A stretch of DNA of 64,000 nt from a bacterium. Its GTDB lineage: Bacteria; Bacillota; Clostridia; Lachnospirales; Lachnospiraceae. Positions within the stretch are counted from its first letter, which is position 1; the number at the start of each line of letters is the position of its first letter. A program made the translations under genes and the position numbers. The stretch covers positions 1-64,000 of the forward strand of contig JAMPFT010000014.1 in assembly GCA_023664305.1 (NCBI GenBank). Direction: 5' to 3'. Below, piece by piece: positions 33,123 through 46,402 of the stretch. The notes below the pieces were generated by a model. It had not been told where the DNA came from and searched no databases. It saw only the letters and a program-made list of their open reading frames with translations.

Positions 33123-33245
33123 GTGTCATATCTCCTTTTCTCATGCAAAAAGAAGTATGATTTGTATTTGACCTCCTTGTAGTATTAAGCAAATACTCTG
33201 ACTGACACATAGGGCAACCTATTGCTGAAACCTCAAAGGGTAATC

Positions 33246-33275
33246 CTTATAACAGCTTGACTAAGGATTTGTCAA
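33246..33275 (-). promoter_or_regulatory. Promoter of the HNH nuclease gene
   Basis: Minus-strand TTGACA (33270-33275), 18-bp spacer, TATAAG (33246-33251), about 120 bp before the gene. An additional AAGGAGG occurs in the leader, far from any good start. Confidence 0.6.
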
Positions 33276-33484
33276 TCATCTTTTTGCAAATGCAAAAGAG
33301 ATAAGATTTGCTCGTTTCAAGTATAACACACCGGCAAAATCATCGCAATAAACACTAACCATATTCTTTAATATCTTTCAAAAACTCAATACATGAAACT
33401 TACGCTACTCTTGCCGTTCTGAACGTATTTATGGAACTGTCAACAAACGCAACAGTTCCACAATCACATAATCAGCCTTAACTA
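33276..33484. other. Gene-free spacer, AT-rich
   Basis: No convincing ORF or RNA gene. It contains a small TTTTTGCA/TGCAAAA inverted repeat next to the HNH promoter and marks the edge of the AT-rich island. Confidence 0.5.
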
Positions 33485-41130: not shown

Positions 41131-41249
41131 AGGCCCCGGTTCCTCTGCGGACACGTTTGCACTCGGGTCGGCACATAACGGACGCTAAGCTCGAAAGTAC
41201 CTCGCCAAGCGCCGATGCGCCTTTACGGTCCGCAGAGGAACCGGGGCCT
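41131..41249. repeat. Structured repeat element, copy A
   Basis: A 119-nt element closed by a perfect 22-bp inverted repeat (41131-41152 with 41228-41249; inner end GCGGAC/GTCCGC) around a 75-nt core. The core matches copy B (46308-46382) at 72 of 75 positions. The stems of A and B differ at six pairs, five of which keep pairing by double change. It lies between the divergent trxB and SDR genes. The strand is unknown. Confidence 0.85.
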
Positions 41250-42621: not shown

Positions 42622-45177
42622 CTATTTTCCGACATACCTTTCGGCCTCCTCCATATCGCGGTATCCGTACATTCTCACGCTGTTGCCCATGATATCGAAG
42701 GCCGGATTTCTCCCTTCTCCGGCATATTTTACAATATATCTTCCGTAAAGCTCCAGCATCTTGTCGGAGTAGGTCCCCAGCTCGCCGCGCAGATAGGTCT
42801 CATAGGAGGTGTCAAAGGGATTGTCCTGATCGGTATGAATGCTTCTGGCATTTTCCGCCAGCGCCGGGTACTCTCCCGCAAACTCTTCCATCCATTTCAC
42901 CTGCAGCTCGCAGATCTGCTCGATAATCTTTTTCTTTTCCTCCGAAAGCTCCGGAAAATGTCCCTTGATCTCCTCATATTTTTCCGGCGCGGTGCTCGCC
43001 ATCATGCGCCCGTATTTTTCCTCGATCAGATTGTGTCCTCTGGAATATTCTCTGCGGAAATCGTAGAGATACTGTAAAAGCATCGTTCTATCCCAGGTCA
43101 GGTACTGGCTTTTTCTCATGATGGAAAAGGTCGGCCAGTCGTTCTGGCAGCTCGCCCGTCCCCCCTCGTTTTTCACCTTGTCAAAGGCCTCAAATTCCAG
43201 TCTTGCGATGGCCTCCACAAGCTCCCCGTCGCTTTTTTCCTCCAGCGACGCCTTGTAGACCAGTTCCTCGCTGTGCGCGTCCAGATAAGGGTCGATATCG
43301 CTGATAATATCCCGTGCATACAGCTCATCCGCAAAAAACTGTCCCAGTCTCTCCAGCAGGGCGCTCACCTTCTCCGCATCCGGCTCCTGTGCAGCAAGCG
43401 CCTCCTGAACCTGTTCCAAAAGCCTCAACGTCTTCCTTCCCGCCTCAGACTCTCCCGTCCTGCGGCAGAGCCACTTGTCATGGGTGGGATATTTCCCGTC
43501 CATATAAATTCTGAGCCGCATGGCCTCCCGGATCCCGTTCCACACCATCATTTCCGCCGTCAGCTTATCACCCCGGCCAAGCATCCGGGGAAAATTATAC
43601 TGTGCCGTCTGGGAAAAGCCTGCCGCCGCTTCCGCCAGCTTTAAATACAGAATCCGCGCCGGATAACCCTGTGCCAGCCGACCGCGGAAAGCGCTGAAAA
43701 TCCCCTCGTCGTCCCGAAACACCTCTCCGTTTACCGCCGCTGCCAGCGAAGCGTCGCTGACCTCCCGCCAGTTTATCTTTTCATAGCTGTCCGCGCCCAC
43801 CAGACTTTCATAGAACTCCGAGATACGCATAACGCCCCTTCTGTTCCTGCCGCTGACCTGAGGCGCCCGCCGATATCCCTGAAATTCCGTCGGCAGCTCC
43901 CGGTACGCCTGCTGCAGGGCTTCTCCGATCTCACGGTAAGTCTCATCCGTCAGCCACATGCAAAAGCCGGGGCCCCAGTCGTGATCCGCCGAAAGGTTGT
44001 CGTCGTAGCCAAAGCAGTCGGATCCTCTTCCCGCCAGTCCGACGGCAATCCTGCCTTCATACTCGCCGAATTTCTCCCGGATCATGGGCGCTCCCAGCGC
44101 TTCATAATACGCTTTGCACAGGGCGAGTCCCTTGTCTGCAGACCCTTTATCCGCAAGGCTTCCGCTTCCCGGTTCCCGGCCTCTCAGGTTCCTGTTTCCC
44201 TGATTCCTGTTCCCCTCGCTCCTGTTCCCCTCGCTCCTGTTCCCTTCGCTCCTGTCCTCTTCGCTCCCGTTCCCTTGGTTCCTGTTCCCTTCGTTCCTGT
44301 TCCCTTCGCTCCTGTTCCCTTCGTTCCTGTCCTCTTCGCTCCCGTTCCCTTGGTTCCTGTTCCCCTCGCTCCTGTCCTCCGGCGCTTTTTCCGCCTCCCT
44401 TTCACAGACCGCCAGGTTTTCCGCCAGCCTGTAATAAGCCTGGTTCCTCCCGACGCCCTGCTCTACAAGCTCCATGGCCTGCCGGTAGTATTCCCCTGCC
44501 TCCCGATATTCCTTTCTGTAAAAATGCCATGCTCCCATGGCGGACAGCGCCGCTCCGAAATGGCTGTCCCTGACCCCGATTTTTTCGAAGGTCTCCACCG
44601 ATTTTCCGGCGTACTCTCCGGCTTCCTCCATCCGCCCCAGCTGTACGCAGGTGGCCGCCAGATTTGCATAAGTCACTCCCAGTTCATACGCCGCATCCTT
44701 CTCCTTGACAATCTGCAGCGCCTTCAGCTGACATTCTCTGGCCTCCTCGAACCTCCCCATCTCCTGATAAAGCAGACTGATATTGTTTTGAAGGCCCGCC
44801 GACAGCATGCTGTCCCGGGAGAGCTTCTGCCGGTAGATTTCCTGCACCTGAAGGTATTTCTCCAAAGACTCCTGCAGCCTTCCGCCCGCACGGTACACGT
44901 TGGCCACATTCAGCAGCGTAGTAGCGTAGGGAACCGTCCCTTCAAGCCCCATCTTCTCCGCCTGACGGACGGCGCGTTCCGCAATCGAATAAGCATCCTC
45001 ATATCGGCCGGCCTCCCGATAATATCCCAATAGCTCGTTCAAAAGCTGCAGCAGGCTGTCGTCGTCCTGCTCCGCCACCGCCGCTGCCGCGCTTTCCCGC
45101 AGCAGCTTTTCCGCCTCTTCTCCCCTGTTCTCCTCAAAGAGAGCGTCCGCCTGTGCCAAAACCTTCTGAATCTCCAT
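42622..45177 (-). CDS. TPR - DUF4037 - DUF4125 multidomain protein
   Basis: An 851-aa cytoplasmic protein. Tetratricopeptide repeats cover residues 1-265. A low-complexity pentapeptide repeat (268-333) follows. The DUF4037 domain holds GRGSDCFGYDDNLSADHDWG (383-402), whose GS and Asp residues look like a nucleotidyltransferase-fold active site. The C-terminal 200 residues (MRKSQYLTWDRTMLLQYLYD onward) are DUF4125. The function is unknown; the domain set suggests a regulated nucleotidyl transfer. The ATG at 45177 follows AGGAGG closely. Confidence 0.8.
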   Translation of the reverse strand: MEIQKVLAQADALFEENRGEEAEKLLRESAAAAVAEQDDDSLLQLLNELLGYYREAGRYEDAYSIAERAVRQAEKMGLEGTVPYATTLLNVANVYRAGGRLQESLEKYLQVQEIYRQKLSRDSMLSAGLQNNISLLYQEMGRFEEARECQLKALQIVKEKDAAYELGVTYANLAATCVQLGRMEEAGEYAGKSVETFEKIGVRDSHFGAALSAMGAWHFYRKEYREAGEYYRQAMELVEQGVGRNQAYYRLAENLAVCEREAEKAPEDRSEGNRNQGNGSEEDRNEGNRSEGNRNEGNRNQGNGSEEDRSEGNRSEGNRSEGNRNQGNRNLRGREPGSGSLADKGSADKGLALCKAYYEALGAPMIREKFGEYEGRIAVGLAGRGSDCFGYDDNLSADHDWGPGFCMWLTDETYREIGEALQQAYRELPTEFQGYRRAPQVSGRNRRGVMRISEFYESLVGADSYEKINWREVSDASLAAAVNGEVFRDDEGIFSAFRGRLAQGYPARILYLKLAEAAAGFSQTAQYNFPRMLGRGDKLTAEMMVWNGIREAMRLRIYMDGKYPTHDKWLCRRTGESEAGRKTLRLLEQVQEALAAQEPDAEKVSALLERLGQFFADELYARDIISDIDPYLDAHSEELVYKASLEEKSDGELVEAIARLEFEAFDKVKNEGGRASCQNDWPTFSIMRKSQYLTWDRTMLLQYLYDFRREYSRGHNLIEEKYGRMMASTAPEKYEEIKGHFPELSEEKKKIIEQICELQVKWMEEFAGEYPALAENARSIHTDQDNPFDTSYETYLRGELGTYSDKMLELYGRYIVKYAGEGRNPAFDIMGNSVRMYGYRDMEEAERYVGK
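44190..44385 (-). repeat. 15-bp in-frame minisatellite (NRSEG/NRNQG) in the TPR gene
   Basis: About 13 five-residue units (NRSEG, NRNEG, NRNQG, with NGSEED variants) at residues 268-333. A longer period is also visible: NRNQGNGSEEDR occurs twice. It is Asn/Gly/Glu/Arg-rich, presumably a disordered linker between TPR and DUF4037. Confidence 0.9.
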
Positions 45178-45232
45178 ACTCCTCCTGTTCTGCGTCCCTG
45201 TCCGCGCACTTCCTGTCACGCCCCGTCTTCAA

Positions 45233-46240: not shown

Positions 46241-46287
46241 AGTGTACTTGTTACCGTTCACGGGTCTGAAAGTAGCGCGCCCTGCAG

Positions 46288-46402
46288 GCACGGATTCTTT
46301 CGCGGACACGTTTGCACTCGGGTCGGCACATAGCGGACGCTAAGCTCGAAAGAACCTCGCCAAGCGCCGATGTGCCTTTACGGTCCGCGAAAGAACCCGT
46401 GC
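46288..46402. repeat. Structured repeat element, copy B
   Basis: A 115-nt element: a 20-bp stem with one mismatch (46288-46307 with 46383-46402) around a 75-nt core nearly identical to copy A. An inner pairing GGCACAT (46324-46330) with ATGTGCC is perfect here and has one mismatch in A. It lies 38 bp after the XRE gene stop and 159 bp before xth. Confidence 0.85.

Follow-up and report, generated by a model that had tools for sequence, protein, structure and literature searches.

A MITE-like repeat family with an unusual long-hairpin body across Lachnospiraceae

The window analyzed here, a 64,000-nt stretch of a Lachnospiraceae genome (assembly GCA_023664305.1, contig JAMPFT010000014.1, positions 1 to 64,000), contains two copies of a long hairpin with closely similar apices and stems that differ in sequence while remaining paired. 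This raises two questions: what kind of element these hairpins are, and why their arms match. We posit, with a probability of roughly three in four, that the window elements belong to a MITE-like, non-autonomous transposon family that has spread in Lachnospiraceae, a reading in which a DDE transposase would act in trans and a mixture of processes would keep the arms matched.

The two elements, their shared core and the enclosing long inverted repeat lie where the initial annotation had placed them, at 41131-41249 (copy 1) and 46288-46402 (copy 2). The arms of the long stem P1 of copy 1 (41131-41152 and 41228-41249, plus strand; helix 1 of our alignment) are 22 nt each, 100% complementary and separated by 75 nt. 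In the left arm the inner GCGGAC is conserved and the outer part differs by locus. The arms of copy 2, defined by inverted-repeat comparison (46288-46307 and 46383-46402, plus strand), are 20 nt each and 95% complementary, again with a spacing of 75 nt. The enclosed 75-nt apices (41153-41227 in copy 1 and 46308-46382 in copy 2, both assigned to the minus strand, on which the loop motifs of the conserved copy 1 apex fit best) are identical at 72 of 75 positions (96%). Folding of copy 1 is far more stable than that of shuffled sequences, with z-scores of -7.21 for the plus strand and -8.16 for the minus strand, and none of 200 shuffles equaled it on either strand.

Four smaller parts are recognized within the apex of copy 1. 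The first is a small hairpin, P5 (41155-41162, minus strand), closed by a GNRA-type tetraloop that is GCAA in this copy; of 204 parsed copies, 193 have a GNRA tetraloop on the minus strand and none has one on the plus strand. The inner closing pair of the hairpin is either C-G (156 copies) or T-A (48 copies). Helix P2 pairs 41170-41176 with 41215-41221, and helix P3 pairs 41179-41186 with 41208-41214 with one bulged base; both are supported by the copy alignment and the parsed copies, and P2 has two both-side-changed pairs in the own genome and 55 distinct helices in 167 parsed copies. The innermost part is a 25-nt motif, CTARGCTCGNNARNACCTCGCYAAG (41185-41209), whose apical loop on the minus strand is GAGG...CGA, that is, a tandem G-A. 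Judged by eye, the plus-strand order in relatives is a AGTGACGCC-like run, a variable arm of ~20 bp, GCAGAC, the small hairpin, P2 ending in ACGT, P3, P4 around TCGNNANNACCTC, the return strands and a close near GGCTGAA. Across copies, the body of the element is a long hairpin with arms that differ by copy and measure, together with the ends, from about 20 to almost 70 bp, and a conserved apex of ~75 nt, which by eye is also found under other kinds of ends.

Covariation is a standard sign of functional RNA, and the initial annotation had described strong covariation on the basis of these two copies. Counted by eye, stem pairs 7, 8, 10, 16 and 18 are indeed altered in both arms without loss of pairing, and the change at pair 14 is one-sided. 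The pattern extends to an alignment of 38 gapless copies (37 distinct rows) drawn from 60 core hits in the own genome, in which 19 of 25 arm pairs and 4 of 17 inner pairs are changed on both sides. Over the whole structure, 192 both-side cells were counted compared with 59.8 +/- 5.5 in shuffled alignments, none of 500 of which reached as high a value; sliding the partner column by 1-3 positions lowered pairing from 93.6% to 31-41%.

The element is a multicopy repeat in its own genome, where a search that scored 40 of 54 candidates returned at least 63 matches, arms or pieces among them. The 60 core hits come from 39 fetched stretches and fall into 40 groups, including several tandem arrays of up to four units. 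The inner motif has 51 exact matches in this genome, some of them outside the 39 fetched stretches, compared with none for a reversed-pattern control. Among the 61 genomes of the genus, own genome included, the element was detected in 21 by BLAST and in 26 by the inner motif. In a class-wide sample of 291 genomes, the inner motif was present in five, all among the 10 members of the own family, and in none of the 281 others. A scan of species genomes returned at least 116 stretches; most of the 80 matches listed are named as Lachnospiraceae or as genera of that family, and a few carry only the names Eubacteriales, Clostridia, Clostridiales or Clostridiaceae. Further copies with varied stems exist in the own genome and in Lachnospiraceae relatives, their arms mostly still paired. 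Contigs terminate inside elements in the own genome (C2:1, C11:1 and C12:64642) and at several contig ends of the relatives G012 and G062; the assemblies are therefore broken at these repeats, and true copy numbers are probably higher.

The copies are intergenic. Neighbors were analyzed for 140 of the 167 copies with good arms, leaving out 27 near stretch ends; with a home-made gene caller, none of the 140 lies inside a gene. The two same-direction arrangements are represented by 53 and 51 copies, and 26 copies lie between divergent and 10 between convergent genes. The balance between the two same-direction arrangements speaks against a fixed position at gene 3' ends, which had been suspected from genome G017, where elements occur as inverted pairs (L233-L241) whose members lie ~200-720 nt from each other and often belong to two subtypes. 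At 33 sites of the own genome (window 41131-41249 and 32 others), 13 copies have divergent neighboring genes and none has convergent ones. Two arrangements in other assemblies were also observed. At L154:1880-2700 and L240:380-1400, in two assemblies, a small gene, which we take to be DUF3781-like, and another long hairpin lie between two inverted elements. At five loci of other Lachnospiraceae (L131, L134, L163, L174 and L176), the innermost motif occurs as a short stand-alone hairpin, in doublets 44-46 nt apart.

The evidence for transposition comes from the ends of the elements. In genomes G012, G061, G062 and G064 the hairpin is bounded by terminal inverted repeats, GTAACAGTTCAGC...GCTGAACTGTTAC. 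Target duplications of 8 bp, with 7-8 of 8 positions matching, flank 16 of the 26 G012 copies and 9 of the 14 from G062, compared with 2 of 650 and 0 of 182 mispaired flanks used as controls; in G061 and G064, duplications of at least 7/8 flank three of six copies (mispaired control, 0 of 30). Complete elements with an apex measure 178-230 nt (those with runs of N left out). Given the inverted ends together with the 8-bp duplications, we assign the family to non-autonomous MITE-like elements of about 180-230 bp; given that the arms lie inside the inverted ends, we regard the arms as part of the element. The GTAACAGTTCAGC end itself is abundant, with 475 occurrences in G062, 213 in G061 and 153 in G012; the apex motif is present in 17 of 52 sampled G062 stretches with ends, many of the others being cut by contig ends, and at L270, L271, L280 and L289 the ends are present and the apex motif is absent.

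The own genome presents a sparser picture. Its ends, GTTACYGTTCACGG, are found in only a few copies, and most of its copies lack recognizable ends. A full duplication accompanies 1 of 10 automatic end calls, several of these calls being false picks in tandem arrays. That one call is at L033, where the duplication GATTAATA matches at 8 of 8 positions, and 10-nt direct repeats flank L033, L042 and L039. Copy 2 of the window has a left end, GTTACCGTTCACGG (46250-46263, plus strand; from end calling), which is the end motif of an own-genome subfamily and also occurs elsewhere; a matching right end was looked for at this copy and none was found. The scarcity of recognizable ends in the own genome, and the fact that arms vary by locus while the apex is constant, would suit a different origin of the arms, namely that they belong to the target, the apex having been inserted into an existing palindrome or having arisen by fold-back copying of it. 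We regard this origin as improbable because the GTAACAGTTCAGC families have their arms within the inverted ends and their target duplications beyond those ends. With respect to the initial annotation, the hairpin was placed correctly and its description as a mobile repeat family with a covarying hairpin is borne out by the many own-genome copies and by the ends and duplications of the relatives; the span that it reported is too short, since the conserved flanks, inverted ends and target duplications of relatives extend outside it.

The family probably moves in double-stranded form, with a DDE-type transposase acting on it in trans, and we searched for candidate movers. The initial annotation had named movement through single-stranded DNA as one possibility. 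If this were movement of the REP or IS200 kind, a REP-associated (RAYT) or IS200/IS605 Y1 transposase would mobilize the hairpin. The hairpin shape, the intergenic placement and the tandem and inverted pairs are features that such a system could produce. However, Y1_Tnp has no match in the own genome, and no Y1 transposase was found in any of nine draft genomes (73-99% complete) with at least nine copies of the motif. To our knowledge, Y1 elements make neither target duplications nor inverted ends, both of which are present here. We therefore reject a Y1 transposase as the mover and consider movement of this kind very unlikely.

The ends and the 8-bp duplication pointed to a second candidate, given that IS66-family elements have GTAA ends and 8-bp duplications. 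The IS66 transposase is not favored as the mover since it has no match in the richest genomes, all of which are drafts in which a gene can be missed: seven of the nine element-rich draft genomes, including the own genome and G012, have no match, and G017 and G050 have one each. Among the related drafts, G062 and G063 have none, G061 has one and G064 has a broken one. The surroundings of the IS66 matches contain nothing beyond chance-level similarity to the GTAACAGTTCAGC ends. An autonomous partner with the same ends was also sought, and no transposase-sized end pair was present among the end places listed. Wide end pairs occur at L144 and L072, the former consisting of ordinary genes, presumably cobalamin genes, between two separate elements. 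A scan of viral contigs for the 14-nt end returned at least 120 stretches, with four wide end pairs in those loci; L360, the one inspected, spans ordinary phage-like genes, and we accordingly take all four for chance. Plasmid and phage records gave no match to the G062 element, and phage records gave none to copy 1.

The preferred reading, that of a MITE-like element, leaves the matching of the arms to be explained. One explanation is that the minus-strand transcript folds into a structured RNA that serves the cell or the element itself and that the arms covary in order to keep an RNA stem, which would be compatible with mobility. The covarying P1 and P2 are in keeping with this explanation, as are the minus-strand GNRA tetraloop, the tandem G-A of the apical loop and the lower folding energy of copy 1 on the minus strand (-83.8 kcal/mol vs -70.7 kcal/mol for the plus strand). 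If one strand were selected as the folded molecule, G-U mismatches on that strand would be expected to be more common than A-C. In the arms of relatives, G-U on the minus strand is indeed in excess, 113 vs 75 on the plus strand, and 89 vs 49 among 86 arms after similar ones are collapsed; the corresponding counts in G012 are 15 vs 0, essentially from one lineage. Within the apex, P4 favors the minus strand (19 vs 3) and P2 leans to it (14 vs 8).

Other observations weigh against a selected RNA. The arms of the own genome have no strand preference, with minus-strand and plus-strand counts of 31 vs 33, 35 vs 28 on the alignment and 4 vs 6 among 10 collapsed arms, and one P3 pair favors the plus strand (44 vs 1). 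The two orientations relative to same-direction neighbors are equally common, and no relative was found in Rfam. Passages of PMC8794818 describe GNRA loops as very stable in DNA as well as in RNA, so that, as far as that account goes, the loops do not decide which molecule folds. The relatives lend genuine support to a folded minus strand, and the window's own genome lends it none. The initial proposal that the hairpin is selected as a structured RNA consequently fares unevenly: the minus-strand GNRA loops and the minus-strand G-U excess of relatives speak for it, and the own genome, without a strand preference, and the mixed signals of the apex do not. We would give a selected RNA appreciable weight, at somewhat below even odds.

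The second explanation places the covariation at the level of DNA, template switching copying one arm onto the other or copies recombining with one another, in which case no selected RNA is needed. The mechanism is published: passages of PMC8794818 and PMC8604942 describe template switching that yields changes on both sides without selection on an RNA. The absence of a strand preference in the own genome is in line with this explanation, and so is the fact that divergence is much greater in arms than in cores and the arms nevertheless remain matched. Between own-genome copies, outer left arms differ by 46.6% and cores by 7.2% (35 of 37 rows), and 11.4% of the outer arm pairs of a copy are not Watson-Crick. 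Left arms in G062 differ from one another at 8.18 of 38 sites and from the right arm of the same element at 1.40 of 38, with a core difference of 2.7%, and 302 of 426 variable site-pairs are altered on both arms (10 of the 14 extracted elements, those of other lengths being left out). Of the 26 G012 copies, compared at two neighboring arm sites, 10 have a mismatch at both sites, 9 at a single site and 7 at neither; four of the seven fully matched copies have one letter pair and three have the other, which is the pattern expected from recombination or from copying in which either arm can serve as the template.

Several findings weigh against copying, at least as a fast process. The relatives have the strand preference described above, and many G012 copies remain uncorrected; in that genome the two arms of a copy are farther apart (2.15, with an indel inflating one row) than left arms are from one another (1.50). 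At a locus that is orthologous between two genomes and 91% identical along the main stretch of the alignment, change has been slow and predominantly confined to one side, with both-side changes in one of five variable arm site-pairs as judged by eye. Some of the template switching described in passages of PMC8604942 inverts the spacer, and none of the 26 G012 copies has an inverted apex. Copying at the DNA level is a possible cause to which we assign a probability only slightly lower than that of a selected RNA.

It is possible that both processes contribute to the arm covariation. Under the MITE-like reading, the arms may be kept matched by selection for a folded minus strand, as a transcript or as single-stranded DNA, in combination with arm-to-arm copying or recombination between copies, and the apex may be retained for its fold; we are less sure of these steps than of the mode of movement. 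More speculatively, and in our judgment rather unlikely, the family could be a new mobile structured module, in which the minus strand folds as RNA or single-stranded DNA, the apex is selected in each copy and reused under several kinds of ends and in stand-alone hairpins, and the two arms of the stem form a paired "barcode", particular to each copy, that is renewed on both sides together.

We did not find this family among known systems, as the initial annotation had also supposed. Searched with Rfam 15 at the gathering score, the window gives two matches, both outside the element, and five relatives give none; a relaxed scan added one chance-level match, also outside the element. No paper on the repeat family was found among those listed from the open-access literature searched, a body of work that mostly excludes subscription journals. 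REP elements and REPINs, which are associated with RAYT, are likewise intergenic hairpins that sometimes occur in inverted pairs. In contrast to them, the present family has target duplications and much longer arms and is without a Y1 transposase in the genomes searched. Bacterial MITEs, as portrayed in passages of PMC10969869, are similarly short and intergenic, with inverted ends, target direct repeats and transcripts predicted to form stable stem-loops; relative to that portrayal, the present family is distinguished by its very long, copy-specific paired arms and by an apex found under other ends as well. ERIC/IRU sequences of enterobacteria can be likened to it by description, in other bacteria, passages of PMC2229807 reporting a 127-bp repeat with an orientation-dependent effect on transcripts when co-transcribed. 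The BOX, RUP and SPRITE repeats of pneumococcus resemble it in being multicopy with extensive secondary structure, and are judged parasitic by the authors in passages of PMC3049150; according to the same passages they are almost confined to pneumococcus and its near relatives, whereas the present family is spread over Lachnospiraceae. In sum, the family is MITE-like, has an unusual body in the form of a long hairpin, occurs across Lachnospiraceae and was not found in the sources searched.

The newly described family breaks assemblies and dots the intergenic regions of Lachnospiraceae. It constitutes a natural system: copies number in the dozens per genome, intact target duplications mark the young ones, and arm changes are paired. 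Given that the strand signals differ between genomes, the respective shares of folded-strand selection and DNA-level copying in covariation become testable. Two further observations concern the window itself. An Rfam match to Staphylococcus-1 RNA at 33186-33314 on the minus strand scores 100.2 bits, above the gathering score, in a genome that looks like Lachnospiraceae. Between the two hairpins, an array of 15-bp repeats at 44157-44411 lies within a minus-strand ORF (42622-45219, 865 aa) and codes for NRSEG/NRNEG-like units.
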